This document shows, one piece after another, positions 1-19,979 of a stretch of 37,099 bases of DNA (within the stretch, counting starts at the first letter, position 1; every line of letters begins with the position of its first letter). The translations under genes were made by a program, and so were the position numbers. The stretch lies in assembly GCA_009784985.1 (NCBI GenBank), contig WQXF01000011.1, forward strand, positions 1 to 37,099. Direction: 5' to 3'. The notes under the pieces were generated by a model, which did no database searches, had not been told where the DNA came from, and worked only from the letters and a program-made list of their open reading frames with translations. Source of the stretch: Clostridia bacterium (GTDB lineage: Bacteria > Bacillota > Clostridia > Christensenellales > Aristaeellaceae).

Positions 1-2
1 AA

Positions 3-83
3 GCGGCCAACCGTGCCAAGGCGTTGAGTTACGGATTCAAAGTGGGCCGATCGGGCGCATCAGAAGAAGCAGACACAACATAA
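3..83 (+). CDS. 3' end of an upstream gene, product unknown (partial)
   Basis: A reading frame is open from the left edge to a TAA at 81-83 and encodes the last 26 residues of a basic, Ala/Ser-rich protein tail (AANRAKALSYGFKVGRSG...). The composition looks like real coding sequence, unlike the other two frames. The beginning lies outside the window, so no function is assigned. It precedes the winged-helix-like gene at 180 on the same strand and probably belongs to the same mobile element. Confidence 0.3.
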   Translation, partial: AANRAKALSYGFKVGRSGASEEADTT

Positions 84-179
84 TGCTATAGCCGGTGACA
101 CCGATCCGATCACGCCCGAACTGCCAACCGGGATTCGTCGGCTTAGCTAACCATAGAATCAAGGGCAAGAGGTGGACTA

Positions 180-611
180 ATGCCAAAAAAGAAACTGCCG
201 ACACACGAATCATTTGAAGCTACAAATGCCCATGGTCAATTTGCAAAAATTACCGTTTCTATGATGAGCAGCCTAGCATGGAAATCATTAAAGCCTTCGC
301 AAATGGGCTTGTACCTCTTGTTTAAGGCCAAGTATACCCGGTACAGGAACGGCGACGACAATCGTCGGAACATATCCTTTCCCTTTTCTGAGTACAAAAG
401 GATTGAGACGTACTCGAATCAGCGCACCTTTTGGCGTGATCTCGACGCTTTGATTGATCGAGGCTTTATTGAGGTCGTTGAATCCGGGCGCATGATTGGT
501 GGCCAAAAGAAGGCGAGCATTTACGGTCTTTCTGACGCATGGAAACAGTATGGCTTGGCTGGCTTCCATGTCGATCCTACTAAGCGACGGAACACGGGTC
601 GAAAAAGCTAA
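180..611 (+). CDS. Winged-helix-like protein of an integrated element (143 aa)
   Basis: This gives a 143-residue soluble protein with a basic N-terminus (MPKKK) and tail (TKRRNTGRKS). The middle reads like a winged helix: a helical segment around residues 35-60, a second around 80-105 (TYSNQRTFWRDLDALIDRGF), and a wing-like strand pair (IEVVESGRMIGGQKKASIYGL). That order (helix, recognition helix, hairpin) is typical of small DNA-binding or replication-initiator-like proteins of integrative elements and plasmids. I see no catalytic motif. An AGAGGTGG ribosome site lies just upstream of the ATG. It is the first complete gene of the element that ends at the tRNA-fragment att site near 3257. Whether it is a replication initiator or a regulator cannot be decided from the sequence. 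Confidence 0.55.
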   Translation: MPKKKLPTHESFEATNAHGQFAKITVSMMSSLAWKSLKPSQMGLYLLFKAKYTRYRNGDDNRRNISFPFSEYKRIETYSNQRTFWRDLDALIDRGFIEVVESGRMIGGQKKASIYGLSDAWKQYGLAGFHVDPTKRRNTGRKS

Positions 612-623
612 GGACGTTTTCTA

Positions 624-826
624 TGTGACAAAATGACCGCAACCCTTATGACATTTTGGCTGCAACGAACACCGATATAATCACATTTTATCCTAGCCTG
701 TTGCGTCCAATTGACTGCAACGAAAAAGCGACAGTTGTGTCCATTTTTCCTTGATACTACTGCATTCGCGAACCTTTTTCGGTCAATGAAGATAAGCGCA
801 TTTCGTTGTGTCAAAATGACCACACC
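624..826 (+). repeat. Iteron-like short repeats in a non-coding stretch
   Basis: The ~470-nt gap between 612 and 1083 has no convincing gene but contains two copies of a 20-nt motif: TGTGACAAAATGACCGCAAC (624-643) and TGTGTCAAAATGACCACACC (807-826). A related element in inverted sense lies near 647-667 (ATGACATTTTGG...TGCAACG), and GACTGCAACG lies near 713-722. Each copy is nearly palindromic around the AAA (TGTGTCA/TGACCACA). The spacing behind a winged-helix-like gene suits iterons or operators for that protein. This is inference. Confidence 0.35.
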
Positions 827-1083
827 TATATATATTTACCATCTCACGCAGATACAAAAGTGGTTTTCGAAAAGGGCAAGTAGGATAGCGGTCATGGCAC
901 AGCAAGCGGTCACTATGGAGCAAGTTGCGAGATAGCTTCTGGAGAACAACGACACCCAGATTGCCAGAAGTGTTCGTATGTGGGCGCTTTTCCTGAGAAA
1001 AAACACGCTCAGGAGTCCGTCAAACCCTTATGAATCAATACGTCCCACATAACCCCCCCCCCCAGGTATTTTTGGAGGTGTGT

Positions 1084-1308
1084 ATGAGAAAGCTTGACAG
1101 GTTGTTGCATAAGATGAGGCCGGCCCCCGCAGATATGTTTCGGTTGAAATATAACCTTGACATCCTGACCGACGACGAGCTTCAGTGGCTGAATGATTAT
1201 TGCAAGAATTCTACAGCCGGAAACATTGGTAGCCAACAGGAGCAGCTATATTATAAATCGTTGATGGAAAAGGCGAGAAAGGCGGCGGGAAGCAATGGCA
1301 CGTCGTAG
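1084..1308 (+). CDS. Small hypothetical protein of the mobile element (74 aa)
   Basis: The start is set at ATG 1084 because GGAGGTG (1074-1080) lies directly in front. The upstream in-frame ATG at 1030 has no ribosome site and would read through an 11-base C run (1053-1063). The 74-residue product (MRKLDRLLHKMRPAPADMFR...) is charged and probably helical, with no signal or membrane segment. Its 3' end overlaps the next gene by 14 nt, so the two are probably translationally coupled. Pairs of tiny overlapping genes like this are common in integrative elements and prophages. I do not recognise the family. Confidence 0.5.
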   Translation: MRKLDRLLHKMRPAPADMFRLKYNLDILTDDELQWLNDYCKNSTAGNIGSQQEQLYYKSLMEKARKAAGSNGTS

Positions 1309-1513
1309 GCAACTCAAAATGAGCACCACCGGAGAGGTTCGCCGAGCGATCTCCAGGGTTGCCAATATGGTTTTAAACGATGATATGTCGCCGCAGAGGG
1401 CCAATTCGATCCTGTGTGCTTGCAACTCAATCCTAGCTGCTGTCCGCGTGGACGATCAAGCACGGAAACTGGAGGAACTGGAGCGGCTGATGATGGAAAG
1501 AAAAGAGAAATAG
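1295..1513 (+). CDS. Small helical protein of the mobile element (72 aa)
   Basis: The 72-residue product starts MARRRQLKMSTTGEVRRAI and ends in a charged helix (ARKLEELERLMMERKEK). The basic N-terminus followed by two amphipathic helices resembles small phage or ICE accessory proteins. A heptad-like C-terminal helix suggests self-association. The start lies inside the end of the preceding gene (14-nt overlap), which supports co-translation. No enzyme motif is visible. It is convergent with the XRE repressor at 1524-1832, leaving only 10 nt between the two stop codons. Confidence 0.5.
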   Translation: MARRRQLKMSTTGEVRRAISRVANMVLNDDMSPQRANSILCACNSILAAVRVDDQARKLEELERLMMERKEK

Positions 1514-1523
1514 CGTCGCTCTC

Positions 1524-1832
1524 TTAAGCGTTTCCTTCCCCTCGCAAAGCTTCGGCTAGCTCTTCGAGCAAAAGTCGATGCTTTTTTTCTATCCCTGTTA
1601 CATCAAGAAATTGCCGTGCGCATTGTCCATTTTTATGATCATACAAGAAATCCATCGAAACATTGAACACATGAGCCATCCGCTGGAGTGTTTCATGAGA
1701 TGGCTGACGTGTTCCGTTTTCATATGCCGAAATCATAGCGCGTGTTACTCTAAGCTTCATCGCCAACTCAGCCTGAGTCATCTTTTTATTTTGTCTCAAA
1801 TTCTTGATGGTATCTTCGAAAAGCACGGCCAC
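1524..1832 (-). CDS. XRE-family helix-turn-helix repressor (102 aa)
   Basis: This is a transcription regulator of the Cro/CI (XRE) type. An upstream in-frame start is possible (2069), but GTG 1832 is preferred: GAGGTG sits 6 nt before it and the protein then begins right at the HTH domain (VAVLFEDTIKNLRQNKKMTQ). Residues ~5-62 form the five-helix XRE fold, with MTQAELAMKLRVTRAMISAY as helix 2-turn-helix 3 and NGTRQPSHETLQRMAHVFNV completing it. The acidic C-terminus (residues ~75-102) may dimerise. It faces the two small element genes and diverges from the secreted-protein gene at 2018, whose promoter it could regulate. It is probably the maintenance or excision repressor of the integrated element (inference from position). 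Confidence 0.8.
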   Translation of the reverse strand: MAVLFEDTIKNLRQNKKMTQAELAMKLRVTRAMISAYENGTRQPSHETLQRMAHVFNVSMDFLYDHKNGQCARQFLDVTGIEKKHRLLLEELAEALRGEGNA

Positions 1833-1901
1833 TACTTTCACCTCACTGCAAAATTGTATCTTGAGTAGAGATTCATGTGGCTGCATGAATGATGCTAACG
1901 A

Positions 1902-1930
1902 TTGACATCGGTTCACTGATAGTATATGCT
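1902..1930 (+). promoter_or_regulatory. Sigma-A promoter for the secreted-protein gene
   Basis: TTGACA at 1902-1907 and TATGCT at 1925-1930 are separated by 17 bp, close to the sigma-A consensus. The predicted transcript starts about 80 nt before the start codon at 2018 and runs away from the XRE gene. Confidence 0.6.
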
Positions 1931-2017
1931 CTAAATCAAGCAAAATTCCACTTGGAAGCTCGGAGAGGGCATGCTGTTGACACAAACAACGAAAAATAGG
2001 GAAGGAAGATGCATCCG

Positions 2018-3067
2018 ATGAAAAAGTTCTTCCGGTTAGCTTTATCGATGTTTTTAGCCTTGTCGTCAATGTCTACTCTAGCAGAATCTGCTACCATTCC
2101 TCCCGATGGATGTGATAGCTTTACAATCGGTGAGTTTTCATACAAGGTTCCGTCAGGATGGCTATTTTCGGACGATGATCCAGAAGTACGTATAGCAAAA
2201 CGTCATTTCAAAGAAAAACTTAATAGCATAGCAGGCGGGTATATTTATGTAGGTGTTTGGGATGAAAATACTGAGCGAGGCAAACGCTTAGATTCAGCGA
2301 TTGATATTTACCTAATGCCACATCTGCAAAGGGCACTAAAATCGGATGATTTGATGGAAGATGCCGACATAATTTACTTTAATGCAGACGAGCATTATGG
2401 TGTAAAATACAATCATGTTATGGAGATAAGTGATCAACTCTACCCTAGTAAAGCTATGTTTTTGCTTGGAGATACGCAAGCAATATATGTTGCTTTGTGC
2501 ATACCAGGAAGGCCGGAAGAACAGAGTACATTACTTAACAGTTTAATTGAATCAATTTACGATACAACACCCATTGAATATCCAAATCGTCCAAAACCAC
2601 AAGATGCAGAGTGGTTACAAAATATGTATGTTTTTTTGCGCGAAAAAGAATATGTTGTCACGGGAACAGTGGCTGATGCAACAATTGTCGATTTGAGATA
2701 TCGAGATATTAACTACAAACCCTTCGACGGATTTGGGATTAGCATATCGTATGGATCGAGATTAGGCGATTGTATATCTATAACAATAGATCATGACAAT
2801 GCCTATGCTTGGCAGCGATTGGGAGATATATTTATAGAGGCAGCCAAGCTTGCTGGAGATTTTTCAGCAAAACGCGCCTCCGAGATATTTAACTATTTAT
2901 TGGCTAATAGGTCAGACGAAGAATCGCAATATGCTGATTCTCATTCAGAGATCGTAATAGATAACCAACGTTATGTTTTGAGATTCTTCACCGGAAGCAA
3001 CGGGCGTGTTATTTTTCGGATAGATCGAGACGCTTCATATTTTGACGGTACATCAACGGCAAATTAA
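2018..3067 (+). CDS. Secreted protein of unknown function (349 aa)
   Basis: The protein begins with a clear signal peptide: MKKFF, a hydrophobic core (RLALSMFLALSSM), then a likely cleavage site after STLA. The ATG at 2018 is favoured over the in-frame ATG at 2009 because the ribosome site GGAAGGA abuts 2009 and is properly spaced from 2018. The mature part (~325 residues) is mixed alpha/beta. It includes segments such as FTIGEFSYKVPSGW near the N-terminus and a second half rich in aromatic residues. I see no membrane anchor, lipobox, sortase signal or catalytic motif, and I do not recognise the family. It is low in GC, like the rest of the element, and is the last gene before the att site, a typical position for cargo. 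It has its own promoter at 1902-1930. Confidence 0.7.
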   Translation: MKKFFRLALSMFLALSSMSTLAESATIPPDGCDSFTIGEFSYKVPSGWLFSDDDPEVRIAKRHFKEKLNSIAGGYIYVGVWDENTERGKRLDSAIDIYLMPHLQRALKSDDLMEDADIIYFNADEHYGVKYNHVMEISDQLYPSKAMFLLGDTQAIYVALCIPGRPEEQSTLLNSLIESIYDTTPIEYPNRPKPQDAEWLQNMYVFLREKEYVVTGTVADATIVDLRYRDINYKPFDGFGISISYGSRLGDCISITIDHDNAYAWQRLGDIFIEAAKLAGDFSAKRASEIFNYLLANRSDEESQYADSHSEIVIDNQRYVLRFFTGSNGRVIFRIDRDASYFDGTSTAN

Positions 3068-3108
3068 GCCGCAAACGCAATGTTTCCTATTTCCCACCTG
3101 CCTCCAGC

Positions 3109-3168
3109 CTGTTCATTTCTACCCTTATTTATACCCTTACGGTGAAGGTAAAAGGCAACAATGAACAG
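3109..3168. repeat. Inverted repeat next to the attachment site
   Basis: CTGTTCATT (3109-3117) is repeated as its exact inverse AATGAACAG (3160-3168). Between them are two direct ACCCTTA copies and an inner partial hairpin. The block lies ~90 nt inside the element from the tRNA-fragment att core, where recombinase or excisionase arm sites are usually found. The function is inferred from location only. Confidence 0.35.
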
Positions 3169-3256
3169 CACGCGAGGGAAGGCAATCCTCCAAAAAGCTA
3201 GATATATCAACACACTTCGGTACTAGTTAAAATGCATTAAAACATGCCTTTGCTAA

Positions 3257-3279
3257 TTCAAGTCCCGTCGACCGCACCA
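3257..3279 (+). other. Attachment site: duplicated 3' end of a tRNA gene
   Basis: The sequence is exactly the 3' end of a tRNA: T-loop TTCAAGT (3257-3263), T-stem 3' arm CCCGT (3264-3268), acceptor 3' arm CGACCGC (3269-3275), discriminator A and encoded CCA (3276-3279). The complementary T-stem 5' arm (ACGGG) is absent and no D-arm or anticodon arm lies upstream. A duplicated tRNA 3' end is the standard footprint of tyrosine-recombinase integration into a tRNA gene. The intact tRNA and the integrase should lie left of this window. The acceptor arm implies a tRNA beginning GCGGTCG; a leucine tRNA is possible but unproven. Confidence 0.75.
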
Positions 3280-3286
3280 AACCCAT

Positions 3287-3340
3287 ATAATCCGAACCAA
3301 GCACGACAGCTATTTCCTGTCGGTGATGGGTTCGGATTAT
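3287..3340 (+). terminator. Large hairpin after the tRNA end, probable tRNA terminator
   Basis: ATAATCCGAACC (3287-3298) pairs perfectly with GGTTCGGATTAT (3329-3340), and inside it CGACAG (3304-3309) pairs with CTGTCG (3317-3322). It starts 7 nt after the CCA and is followed by TGCTTTATTT. It is therefore best read as the native terminator of the disrupted tRNA gene, though it could also be part of the att structure. Confidence 0.55.
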
Positions 3341-3439
3341 TGCTTTATTTCGACTATGAGTTCTTTCGCAATGGCATGAAGCAGCGCCCGGAATCCAAGC
3401 CACGAGGCCCGCGCAAGAAGCGAACGGCCGAATAAACGC

Positions 3440-3483
3440 AAAAAGGGGCGGCAACATATCTTTGTCCATGATACCGCCGCTCC
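3440..3483 (-). terminator. Terminator of the HNH gene, homologous to the one at 4506-4542
   Basis: Read on the minus strand, the arm at 3476-3483 (GGAGCGGC) pairs with 3445-3452 (one G-U pair) and is followed by five T. It lies 9 nt beyond the stop of the HNH gene. The 17 bases CATGATACCGCCGCTCC (3467-3483) recur exactly at 4526-4542 in a second terminator, so the HNH gene is bracketed by direct repeats about 1.06 kb apart. Confidence 0.6.
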
Positions 3484-3491
3484 GTTGTACT

Positions 3492-4436
3492 TCACTCAAG
3501 AGAGATTCGTGAAAGAACTTCCAAAAACACGCACACTACTTCATCGCAATCAACATTCATATTCATGTAGTCTGGTGTTAATGCGTCTTTTGTTTCTAGG
3601 ATGAATCCAATTTGTCGTAGCAATAGGTTTTCCTGTTCAATATAATACAGTGGTTCAATCTTAAACTTTTGGCAAGTCTCAATAATGCTGTGCGTTATTT
3701 TATCCGAGATACCCCATCGGTATTTCAGTACATTCATTTTCTTTTTGACCGGAATGAAAGAAGAGTCTGATGAGAATATGTCGTCAAGCTGTGAAATCAG
3801 GGAATACATAAATTCATCGGTTGCAATATCATCGGTTTGAATTATTGCACAAAAGCGATGCTGTGTTAAATCTCCGAATCTTTCCTTCACACACTGAGCT
3901 AAGTAAAACAATCGCAATAAGTCAAGAACTTGCATATCTGTCAAAGATTGCGGAGGTCTAGAAAGTTCGTGTATGTGAGAAATTAAATGCTCTGCTTCAA
4001 AGCTGTTTCCTCGTTTTTTGTTACAATGTTCACAGAGAAGCCGGATGTTGCTAACATCAGATGAGCCACCTTTTGACCATGGTATAATGTGGTCGAAATT
4101 TATCTCTTCGTCCGAAACATTTTTTCCGCATACCTGACATACCCCTTTATCTCGTCTTAGAACTTTGAATTTCACAGGCTGTGGTATAATTCTTGAAATA
4201 TTCCTTAACGTCTTTGTCTCGGTGAGGGGTTCTGCTACTATAAAAACAGGGCATATGTGTCCAAATACTCGGCATCTGTAAAGACTATTCTCCTCTGGGA
4301 GGGGGAAGCCCTCAACTAGTATGCCATACGGACAATACTTCAATTCCCAACAAGGTTTACAAATTGCATTTATGTAATTTTCTGAGATTCTGTTTTGCCA
4401 TTTTTCAAAAGCCAAGGTAATTCTATCTTTTTTCAT
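3492..4436 (-). CDS. HNH endonuclease with an N-terminal cysteine cluster (314 aa)
   Basis: This is a predicted metal-dependent nuclease. The HNH/zinc core spans about residues 90-145: C100-x2-C103, then D115-H116 (NFDHIIPWSKGG), N130 (SNIRLLCEHC) and C135-x2-C138. The order CxxC-DH-N-CxxC is the classic HNH-with-zinc arrangement. Upstream lies a second cluster (C26-x2-C29-x5-C35, later C55 and C62, with CPYG and FGHICPVF) that could hold zinc or an Fe-S cluster. Residues 150-314 are helical and unrecognised. ATG 4436 is preferred over GTG 4448 because the GTG overlaps the GGAG ribosome site. The low GC and the bracketing terminator repeats indicate acquired DNA. Similar stand-alone HNH proteins often sit in defence or mobile contexts, but no partner gene is visible here. 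Confidence 0.8.
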   Translation of the reverse strand: MKKDRITLAFEKWQNRISENYINAICKPCWELKYCPYGILVEGFPLPEENSLYRCRVFGHICPVFIVAEPLTETKTLRNISRIIPQPVKFKVLRRDKGVCQVCGKNVSDEEINFDHIIPWSKGGSSDVSNIRLLCEHCNKKRGNSFEAEHLISHIHELSRPPQSLTDMQVLDLLRLFYLAQCVKERFGDLTQHRFCAIIQTDDIATDEFMYSLISQLDDIFSSDSSFIPVKKKMNVLKYRWGISDKITHSIIETCQKFKIEPLYYIEQENLLLRQIGFILETKDALTPDYMNMNVDCDEVVCVFLEVLSRISLE

Positions 4437-4505
4437 TTCATAGTTCACTCCGCAGACAAAGTGTGTTTATGTAGAATTATATCAGGTGGAGCAGGATTTT
4501 GCACT

Positions 4506-4542
4506 AAAAAGGAGCGGCGATATCGCATGATACCGCCGCTCC
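4506..4542 (-). terminator. Rho-independent terminator of the decayed small transposon gene
   Basis: On the minus strand GGAGCGGCG (4534-4542) pairs perfectly with CGCCGCTCC (4511-4519), a 9-bp GC-rich stem, followed by five T (4506-4510). It lies just past the stop of the pseudogene ending at 4549. It shares 17 identical bases with the HNH gene terminator. Confidence 0.65.
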
Positions 4543-4548
4543 TTACCG

Positions 4549-4722
4549 TTAGTCCTTCGGTTTCCTTTCCACACGTCCTTTTTCCGCTTCCTGCTGCGCT
4601 TTCCACTCGGCAAATTCTCTCTGCCCGTCCTCACTCTCAAAAAGGGCGAGTATATCGGGCATAATACAGCGAGCGATTGCTTCAATCTTGTACTGCGGAA
4701 TATTGATGTTGTTGATTATTTT
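4549..4722 (-). pseudogene. Remnant of a small transposon/ICE accessory gene
   Basis: The minus strand reads through a continuous ~58-codon frame containing INNINIPQYKIEAIARCI, then DILALFESEDGQREFAEWK and an acidic/basic tail ending KPKD with a TAA at 4549-4551. From memory, this resembles a small protein common in clostridial transposons and conjugative elements, where it normally begins with Met just before KINNINIPQYK. Here there is no ATG, GTG or TTG in front of that motif: the in-frame stop TAG lies at 4729-4731 and the codons between are ACG AAA AAA ATA. The start appears lost, so it is scored as a pseudogene; translation from the internal ATG at 4662 would drop the conserved N-terminus. 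Confidence 0.55.
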
Positions 4723-4794
4723 TTTCGTCTACCCAAATCGTGCCCTCCATTATACTCACTTGTCAAGGTGCGGTACTCGTTTCGAGCGAGGTGA

Positions 4795-4977
4795 AAAGAG
4801 GGCTGCCGCTACGTTGCGACAGCCCGATACCTGTACGATGGCAAAATCATCATCACGTTCAACTACAAGGATGGCACAAAAGCCATCACTCTTGAGGATG
4901 TAAAAGGTTCGGATTTGGATTGCCTCGGTGCATTGGAAAGAAAGCCTTGTACCTCAAAGGATACAGGGCTTTTTTGA
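4795..4977 (+). pseudogene. C-terminal fragment of a large serine recombinase
   Basis: In one plus-strand frame, after a stop at 4792-4794, the sequence reads YLYDGKIIITFNYKDGTKAI (from about 4828) and TLEDVKGSDLDCLGALERKP, ending at TGA 4975-4977. This matches my memory of the C-terminal tail of clostridial large serine recombinases of the TnpX/TndX type. The catalytic domain, zinc ribbon and coiled coil (about 500 residues) are missing. A 10-bp hairpin with one mismatch (GGGCTGCCGC 4800-4809 / GCGACAGCCC 4816-4825) marks the left junction. It is a relic of a lost transposon, consistent with the decayed accessory gene beside it. Confidence 0.6.
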
Positions 4978-5636: not shown

Positions 5637-6029
5637 TTAGCTCCCGTTTACGATCACGGTGAGGGCATCCTGCAACACGGCAGACAAGCTCAGATGCCGA
5701 AACGCTGCCTCTTCGTCCAACCATTTGGGGAGGGAGATGGTGCGGCGAACAGCGGTGTTCTTCCGTTGCCTGGCGTAGACTTCGGGATCGGCGTCAATCA
5801 ATGTCACATAGTCGTCTCCATCAACCTGGATTGCGCTTACAGGGCTTGGCGCCGGAATCGGCCTCTCGTACATTTCCTGGGTATCCAGCCACAAGGCAAG
5901 GCAATCTCGCGCCATAAAAATTGCGTTTTCAAGGCCCCTTCCTTCTGTTGTACATTCAAGATCGGGAAAGTCGATGGTGATGCTTCCATCGTCGTTGGGT
6001 GAAAAGATGGCGGGGTAGATTTTTGTCAT
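5637..6029 (-). CDS. hicB: HicB-family antitoxin (130 aa)
   Basis: This is the antitoxin of a type II HicAB module; it would bind HicA and the module's operator. The N-terminal half is the HicB RNase-H-like fold (MTKIYPAIFSPNDDGSITID, then FPDLECTTEGRGLENAIFMA). The C-terminal ~35 residues carry a DNA-binding segment (RRTISLPKWLDEEAAFRHLS...LSAVLQDAL), resembling a ribbon-helix-helix. A GGAAAGGAG ribosome site precedes the ATG. The gene sits 39 nt downstream of what remains of hicA, in the usual toxin-then-antitoxin order, and is transcribed from the minus-strand promoter at 6178-6206. Since the toxin is truncated, this HicB is probably an orphan that may still act as a DNA-binding autorepressor. 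Confidence 0.85.
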   Translation of the reverse strand: MTKIYPAIFSPNDDGSITIDFPDLECTTEGRGLENAIFMARDCLALWLDTQEMYERPIPAPSPVSAIQVDGDDYVTLIDADPEVYARQRKNTAVRRTISLPKWLDEEAAFRHLSLSAVLQDALTVIVNGS

Positions 6030-7766: not shown

Positions 7767-8615
7767 ATGGGAAACTTTGATACCGTCAAGCGTGCTCTTG
7801 CATACATTGATGATCATTTGGGCGATCCCATTTCTCTGGAATCAATCGCTACCTTGTTTCATTTTTCCCCTTACTATTTTCACCGGATGTTTTCCATCAT
7901 TGTTGGAAAAACCTTGGCCGTGTACATCCGCGACAGGCGATTGTATTGGGCCTGCCAAGCCCTTTCGGAATCGGATCAACCCATACTGACCATTGGGATG
8001 GACTGCGGATACCCGTCGGCCCAGTCTTTTTCTCGTGCATTTAAGGCTGCATTTGGCCTTTCGCCAAAGGAATATCGAAACCAAGGGTTACGCCCCGTAG
8101 GCGAATCCGTGGATTCTCTGATCATGAAATTCACAAACCGATTGAAGGGAGGAATCCTGGTGAGCCCCAAATTACTCAAAAAGCCTGCCCTGCTCATTGC
8201 GGGAATCTGTGGCGATGGAGATAAAACAGCGGAAGTCTGGGCCGCGTTTGAGGCGTTGATCAAACAACAACCTTTAAACAACAAGCTCTCCAGCGATGGC
8301 TATGAGGTTAGGATATGCGATGAAGAACAGCACATCGTGCATGTGGGATACTTGGTAAAAGACACGCAAGTAGATTCGGTTTACACGGTGATGCCGTTGC
8401 CAGCTTCGGATTATGCGTCCTTTGACGTGTATGTTGCCAATGGATACGATAGCGAAAACAATGCAATGATGGAATGGCTTACCACAAACGAGCAGGGGTA
8501 TTCCGAGCGGTTGCTTGGCAACGCCCATTATTGCGTGGAGTTTTATGACGAGCGGTTCACCGGCAACGAAGAAGGTTCTATTGTAGAAATTTGGATGCCC
8601 ATCAAAAAAGAATGA
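7767..8615 (+). CDS. AraC-family regulator with GyrI-like effector domain (282 aa)
   Basis: A transcription activator of the Rob/SoxS/MarA-plus-GyrI type. Residues 1-105 form the two HTH motifs: ISLESIATLFHFSPYYFHRM and the AraC signature around CGYPSAQSFSRAFKAAFGLS-PKEYR. Residues ~125-282 are a GyrI-like small-molecule-binding domain (DYASFDVYVANGYDS..., ending in EIWMPIKK as GyrI domains do). Such proteins sense drugs or toxic hydrophobic compounds and activate efflux or detoxification genes. ATG 7767 has a perfect AGGAGGTG site 6 nt upstream; earlier in-frame starts do not. No efflux gene adjoins, so the target may be distant or the gene itself via the palindrome at 7672. Confidence 0.9.
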   Translation: MGNFDTVKRALAYIDDHLGDPISLESIATLFHFSPYYFHRMFSIIVGKTLAVYIRDRRLYWACQALSESDQPILTIGMDCGYPSAQSFSRAFKAAFGLSPKEYRNQGLRPVGESVDSLIMKFTNRLKGGILVSPKLLKKPALLIAGICGDGDKTAEVWAAFEALIKQQPLNNKLSSDGYEVRICDEEQHIVHVGYLVKDTQVDSVYTVMPLPASDYASFDVYVANGYDSENNAMMEWLTTNEQGYSERLLGNAHYCVEFYDERFTGNEEGSIVEIWMPIKKE

Positions 8616-11241: not shown

Positions 11242-11270
11242 TTGACACAACATGTTGATTTTGGTATAAT
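11242..11270 (+). promoter_or_regulatory. Perfect consensus promoter of the HD-PRTase cassette
   Basis: TTGACA (11242-11247), a 17-bp spacer and TATAAT (11265-11270) match the sigma-A consensus at all 12 positions. The spacer begins with the 10-bp palindrome CAACATGTTG (11248-11257), a natural repressor site. A promoter this strong on a putative effector cassette would usually need such control. Confidence 0.85.
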
Positions 11271-11313
11271 TTTCGCGTCCAATAGGAACGCTTTTTGAAA
11301 GGAGTGTGCGGAC

Positions 11314-19556: not shown

Positions 19557-19979
19557 TCAAATCTCAAAATCTGCAAGCTTAAAGTCCGCATAGAATCTCC
19601 CTGAAGTTGGGGTGAATCTAAGAACACAAAAATCAGGGTCGGTGAAAGATTTTTGTGGATAGGCATTTTTGAATATGCTCTGCCAATATTTTTCTTTGAT
19701 GCTCATTTCGGTCACAATTTCCATATCACCTTTGAGCAAACATCCCTTCCACCATACAATCTTTCGACTGTAAAAATAAACATTGGATTTTTGATTTCTA
19801 CTCATTTCGGCGACAAACTTCGAGGACGTATTCGTACAGAAATACATCTCACTCAACGATTCTCTATATTTGCCGGGAACAACTGCTTTTGTCAGTGGGT
19901 AACCATCTGATCCCACACAAGACAAAATGAATGTGTTAACTTTTTTGTGTAACTTCTCGGCTTTTTCTCTTGGTGTCAT
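19557..19979 (-). CDS. Pyridoxamine-5'-phosphate-oxidase-like flavin split-barrel protein (140 aa)
   Basis: A small protein of the FMN-binding split-barrel superfamily, close in pattern to 'general stress protein 26' types: N-terminal helix MTPREKAEKLHKKVNTFILS, the strand CVGSDGYPLTKAVV, then EMYFCTNTSSKFVAEMSRNQ and NVYFYSR, as in this fold, ending in VLRFTPTSGRFYADFK. Members use FMN or F420, or bind ligands without catalysis; the substrate cannot be told. ATG 19979 has GGAGG five bases upstream; an in-frame ATG at 19991 with a weaker AGAGGA site would add four residues. It is convergent with the VWA lipoprotein gene. Confidence 0.8.
   Translation of the reverse strand: MTPREKAEKLHKKVNTFILSCVGSDGYPLTKAVVPGKYRESLSEMYFCTNTSSKFVAEMSRNQKSNVYFYSRKIVWWKGCLLKGDMEIVTEMSIKEKYWQSIFKNAYPQKSFTDPDFCVLRFTPTSGRFYADFKLADFEI

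Follow-up and report, generated by a model that had tools for sequence, protein, structure and literature searches.

A small tyrosine-integrase element in the 3' end of a tRNA-Leu(GAG) gene, beside the probable remains of an earlier serine-recombinase element

The border described here is almost certainly the product of two insertions at one tRNA end: a small tyrosine-integrase element, E1, entered the 3' end of a tRNA-Leu(GAG) gene, and a serine-recombinase element, E2, now decayed, had come to lie at the same end, probably before it. The window, by which we mean the whole 37,099-nt stretch of clostridial DNA that was analysed, lies on contig C11 of a genome of 2.86 Mb in 206 contigs. The sequence itself shows both pairs of ends and how they are oriented, as well as the arm repeats and the kinship of the integrase. 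E1 has its ends on two contigs, C9 and C11, with its middle missing from the assembly. An earlier note on this DNA had taken a tRNA fragment at positions 3257-3279 for the right border of an integrated element; this holds for E1, but what follows on the right is an E2 remnant and not plain chromosome (Table 1).

Table 1. Features of E1 and E2 in the window
Feature	Positions	Strand	Remarks
E1 right-hand end as assembled	1..3277		Runs into assembly gap; other end C9:1-2548 (integrase, excisionase-like HTH gene, tRNA)
E1 gene, 143 aa	180..611	+	No family match
E1 small ORF	1084..1308	+	Overlaps 1295-1513 ORF
E1 small ORF, 72 aa	1295..1513	+	
E1 XRE/Cro-type repressor (HTH_3)	1524..1829	-	
E1 putative secreted cargo protein, 352 aa	2009..3067	+	Signal-like start, no family match
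E1 arm-type site AAGGGTATAAATAAGGGTA	3120..3138	-	Tandem repeat, 12-bp spacing; sole genomic partner C9:2447-2465, beside integrase
E2 attL	3250..3298	+	tRNA end joined to right half of serine-recombinase attP; centre GC 3274-3275
E1 attR core, 21 nt	3257..3277	+	Displaced tRNA-Leu(GAG) 3' end, identical to C9 tRNA end
E2 startless ORF	3277..3435	+	Displaced serine-recombinase C-terminal tail, PNPYNPN...GDGFGLLLYF...FFRNGMKQRPESKPRGPRKKRTAE; stop included
Hairpin (AATCCGAACC ... GGTTCGGATT)	3289..3338	+	E2 attP outer arm and second inverted copy inside tail ORF
HNH endonuclease gene	3492..4448	-	Inside E2 remnant
Small E2 gene (FESEDGQREFAEWKAQQE)	4552..4728	-	Beside same tail ORF in other genomes
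E2 serine-recombinase C-terminal remnant	4795..4974	+	Chromosomal codons after 4931
E2 attR	4906..4954	+	Centre GC 4930-4931, then terminator-like sequence similar to that at E1 attL on C9

Results

The displaced tRNA end and its partner

On the forward strand, positions 3257-3279 read TTCAAGTCCCGTCGACCGCACCA, which comprises a T-loop, the 3' strands of the T-stem and the acceptor stem, the discriminator A and CCA. ARAGORN made no tRNA call at 3257-3279, there is no 5' tRNA half, and the sequence immediately upstream (...TTGCTAA) is not of tRNA; chance matches to the 23-nt segment numbered zero in 100 shuffles of the window. Its sole other copy in the genome at up to three mismatches (C9:2526-2548, minus strand; identity 22/23) forms the 3' end of an intact tRNA-Leu(GAG) gene (C9:2529-2608, minus strand), which begins with GCGGTCG and has the same orientation as the displaced fragment, as is characteristic of islands in tRNA genes. 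The claim of a tRNA 3'-end att site at this border is thus borne out by its partner at the intact tRNA: the earlier note had expected a second copy of the core in the genome and a complete tRNA starting GCGGTCG, and both are present. It had also foreseen an identical copy of all 23 nt; the copy exists, but the core common to both places is 21 nt long (window 3257-3277; C9 2528-2548, minus strand), the window then reading CA-CCA where C9 reads CA-CTA.

The predicted integrase, too, was found: a tyrosine integrase inside the element adjoins the C9 tRNA (~1266-2438) and is convergent to it, with its stop codon ~90 bp past the tRNA 3' end. Its reading frame is intact, and it combines the Phage_integrase, SAM-like and arm-binding domains. 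Beyond it come a 255-aa ORF, an HTH_17 excisionase-like gene and, at the contig end, a gene fragment matching phrog_1709, a phage family of unknown function; a lysA-type decarboxylase lies on the opposite side of the tRNA. The element does extend to the left of the border as had been proposed, but the intact tRNA and the integrase, expected to the left of the window, are on the other contig.

The two ends are further paired by arm-type repeats. The integrase-tRNA interval on C9 holds the tandem repeat AAGGGTAAACTGAAGGGTA (C9:2447-2465), and its counterpart lies on the minus strand 118 bp inside the window core. The pattern AAGGGTA-N5-AAGGGTA has exactly two occurrences in the 2.86 Mb, one inside each E1 end, where, judged from sequence, these repeats would bind the integrase. 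A direct repeat at exactly 12 bp is present in 31 of 37 related integrase-tRNA intervals, whereas the other spacings between 8 and 28 bp occur in 1-6 intervals each. Across the 37 intervals the arm sequence varies by integrase (AAGGGTA, TGCGGTCA, AAGGGAAA, TTGTGGTC) and the 12-bp spacing is fixed.

Relatives and gene content of E1

We scanned 76 relatives of the integrase from named genomes, most of which are convergent to a tRNA at ~80-290 bp, the isotypes differing between them. Five of these elements are complete on single contigs (3.7, 6.6, 6.8, 7.5 and 8.6 kb); in all five a second core is present, and the matching arm pair lies 107-128 bp inward of it. The nearest integrases (L085 at 72%, L037 at 64% and L039 at 60%) are all at tRNA-Leu(GAG), and the elements of two of them are complete (L037, 6.8 kb; L039, 8.6 kb). 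All Leu(GAG) members of the integrase tree, the C9 integrase among them, fall into one clade of six with 99% support, which further includes L097 at tRNA-Val(CAC) and L038, for which no adjacent tRNA was found. L037 encodes a terminase small subunit, a DnaD-like loader and a sigma factor, and L039 a VapE-type primase-helicase.

Among the E1 proteins in the window, a convincing family match was obtained for the XRE repressor only, and the E1 genes gave no defence-system assignment beyond generic HTH matches. The 5.8 kb of assembled E1 ends, from which the middle is missing, contain no relaxase or conjugation genes, and the assembled parts have no satellite-type replication module or terS of the kind seen in L037. 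A search by end overlap among the genome's contigs retrieved none that bridges C9:1 and window:1, and comparing the surroundings of tRNA-Leu(GAG) in other genera for synteny with the genes of C9 and the window yielded nothing useful. As known from its assembled ends alone, E1 may be a satellite, an ICE/IME or a prophage remnant. That it is real but defective, with only its ends remaining and no mobility left, is an unlikely reading, though one to be taken seriously: the assembled 5.8 kb lack any replication or transfer gene, but the integrase frame, both arm pairs and both cores are intact, and since related elements measure just 3.7-8.6 kb the missing module could fit into the gap. An excised circle of E1 was not observed.

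The right flank of the border

The terminator-like hairpin that had been noted 7 nt past the CCA is real (RNA fold of 3289-3338, -27.3 kcal/mol, z -4.9), but it is not simply a tRNA terminator, as it sits in E2 coding sequence. In frame with the CCA, the flank encodes the peptide PNQYNPN..FPVGDGFGLFVYF..YFRNGVRRKP.SKPRGPRKKK, which has no start codon of its own and none consistent with it inside the tRNA. When the tRNA end plus window 3280-3369 was used as a query, the same flank was recovered behind intact tRNA-Leu genes of other genera that are without E1. It also stands behind tRNA-Leu of four anticodons, tRNA-Arg(ACG), tRNA-Lys(CTT) and tRNA-Ile; its first part recurs behind tRNA-Val within this genome. 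The lengths between the hairpin arms vary mostly by multiples of three. The C-terminal half of the tail shows codon-position differences of 128/100/284, from which it follows that coding constraint has acted on it. Rfam gave no match in 3000-3600, and the tail peptide alone had none in phages, plasmids or NCBIfam.

These data bear on whether the flank could be the native 3' flank of tRNA-Leu with its terminator, kept in relatives, with no second element at all. The stability of the hairpin and the E1-free tRNA-Leu genes of other genera would agree with this; but the recurrence of the same flank behind tRNAs of so many kinds, the in-frame length changes and coding-type variation, the continuation of a serine-recombinase frame and the pairing with a second att site, detailed below, make it very improbable, and we rejected the native terminator as an account of the flank.

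In the same genome, tRNA-Val(TAC) and tRNA-Val(CAC) genes (C27 ~8475-8530 and C35 ~19792-19850; L140 and L143) have the same hairpin behind them, with the initial residues of the E2 tail, P[FL]NQDNPNL[IV]PIGEGFGFV; these flanks are likely further E2 scars.

The E2 remnant and its rebuilt attP

E2, as preserved, extends over ~3274-4931; it is decayed and probably older than E1. A fuller counterpart is offered by L196, where a DUF6061 gene comes after the tail stretch and then, at ~5 kb, a 524-aa serine recombinase with Resolvase, Recombinase and Zn-ribbon domains that ends in ...GSDLDWFGAP plus a few residues. The window keeps only a C-terminal remnant of such a protein (~4828-4930, ...GSDLDCLGA), corresponding to about the last 50 codons of the body. 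A HicB-like antitoxin gene lies just past the E2 remnant (5637-6029, minus strand).

By joining 25-26 nt of the recombinase end, as the left part, to the remainder from the tRNA side, we rebuilt a 49-bp attP with inverted arms, GGTTCGGATT...GGTGCACCAAAC...AATCCGAACC (in outline, GGTTCGGATN-N29-AATCCGAACC), through which the recombinase frame is continuous into the tail peptide in all five pairs translated. Seven attL/attR pairs, among them L229 (tRNA-Ile) and L209 (tRNA-Ala), were compared: attL equals attR at attP positions 25-27 in every one, the corresponding figures for mismatched pairs being 30, 22 and 22 of 42. Agreement starts exactly at position 25, the centre, in six of the seven, and the shared run always spans the centre; hence, these ends have a ~50-bp attP with inverted arms and only a very short central core in attL and attR. 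The targets are tRNA 3' ends in 6/7 pairs, L195/L208 being the one that is not.

On the simplest reading of these sequences, E2 would be a serine recombinase with attP inside its own gene, losing a tail of ~35-55 residues on integration. The viral contigs, phages and plasmids searched contained no excised E2 with an uninterrupted gene, an absence that is no proof, and a scan of viral contigs found no rejoined attP. We tentatively go further and suggest, as a proposal that we would not yet favour over its negation, that E2 exemplifies a family of large serine recombinases with attP within their own reading frame, for which the acceptor/CCA end of tRNA genes of several isotypes serves as the target. 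Each integration would then cost the recombinase its conserved basic C-terminal tail and give it chromosome-encoded residues instead; in this way the protein would report, and possibly switch with, its integration state, integrating while it has the tail and staying or excising once the tail is gone.

Proposed history of the locus

We advance the following course of events, in which the direction of change, the role of the arms and any present mobility are inferred. The starting state would have been a tRNA-Leu(GAG) gene with its native terminator, now at ~4932-4975; in a by-eye comparison this segment equals the terminator-like sequence at the E1 attL in 33 of 38 positions. E2 probably came first, leaving its tail (3277-3435) behind the tRNA CCA and its recombinase body at ~4.9 kb. 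E2 is the source of the CCA at 3277-3279 and would subsequently have decayed until the HNH gene and the small gene were left. The rebuilt E2 attB reads GACCGCATTGG; therefore, the tRNA may have had no encoded CCA before E2. The genome encodes a CCA-adding enzyme domain (PF01743), and many of its tRNA genes are without an encoded CCA.

E1 would have entered later, by recombination of an element-borne 21-nt copy of the tRNA 3' end with the chromosomal tRNA. The tRNA would thereby have been rebuilt on C9 with the element's copy, CCA giving way to CTA, and the chromosome's own 3' end, CCA included, would have been moved to window 3257-3277 and the letters that follow. The integrase might act through the pairs of 12-bp-spaced arm repeats in the two ends, aided by the HTH_17 excisionase-like protein. 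That the fragment is instead a decayed tRNA pseudogene or a chance similarity tied to no element is scarcely credible, for although displaced tRNA fragments can outlive their element and the middle of E1 is missing, an integrase stands beside the partner tRNA, the arm repeats uniquely pair the same two places and the arm-to-core distance agrees with that in complete relatives.

The rebuilt tRNA-Leu(GAG) ends in CTA and the displaced copy in CCA; L085 is likewise without CCA (CTT). It seems that an encoded CCA is gained or lost when an element integrates.

Discussion

E1 is a well-made case of a common thing, a tRNA element known by one end whose predicted partner was then found; E2 is the more unusual of the two. 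Islander-type genomic islands in tRNA genes with tyrosine integrases (PMC4383910) and IMEs such as NBU1 at tRNA-Leu (PMC5704250) share with E1 an intact tRNA with a correctly oriented displaced 3' fragment, an integrase beside the tRNA and a target restored by the element's copy. E1 fits the Islander definition (PMC4383910) except for contiguity. In contrast to those islands, its restored tRNA has CTA and not CCA, its arm repeats stand at a fixed 12-bp spacing, and it is known from its ends. This fixed spacing could help to match the two ends of an element that an assembly has divided between contigs.

For E2, a likeness is offered by the streptococcal serine-integrase ICEs at rumA, whose integrase gene contains one att end in its 3' part and has its C-terminal end exchanged on integration (PMC4701971). 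Both features appear to recur in E2, whereas E2 differs in targeting a tRNA acceptor end, in losing a conserved basic peptide and in that the tRNA regains (A)CCA. The location of attP inside an integrase gene that integration alters is shared with two tyrosine recombinases: IntP of the Myxococcus phage Mx8, as cited in PMC4383910 (ref. 24), and the archaeal SSV-type suicidal integrases, described as exclusive to archaea (PMC8371274). E2, in contrast, works with a large serine recombinase, whose catalytic part is kept when the tail is lost; an SSV-type suicidal integrase was ruled out for E2 on account of its serine family.

As of 2014, according to PMC4383910, no serine recombinase was known to have a tRNA gene as its target, and among open-licence papers we found no report of C-terminal exchange of serine integrases at tRNA genes, though later reports may exist. 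Here, at least six serine-recombinase elements lie at tRNA-Leu, tRNA-Ile and tRNA-Ala in metagenome-derived genomes and virome contigs. The significance of such elements is threefold: (i) the startless ORF behind the CCA is a recognisable footprint that lets them be found in bulk; (ii) they provide serine recombinases with a predicted attB in conserved tRNA ends; (iii) control of the direction of recombination by the tail becomes testable.

A likeness to PICI-like phage satellites comes from the gene content of L037 and L039, and none of those genes is in the assembled E1. In these two elements the terminase small subunit is encoded at L037 7232-7675 (minus strand) and the VapE-type primase-helicase at L039 3936-6353 (plus strand); no capsid or large-terminase gene was recognised among the proteins scanned in either, one weak head-protein-family match in L037 apart. 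At 7-9 kb, both are candidate phage satellites in gut Clostridia. In L037, moreover, 30 bp of the tRNA 3' end, CCA included, are duplicated in tandem at the element's tRNA end (11243-11302). At the far element end of L071 (275-599), three tRNA-Ser core copies lie exactly 162 bp apart, as if short units had piled up in tandem.
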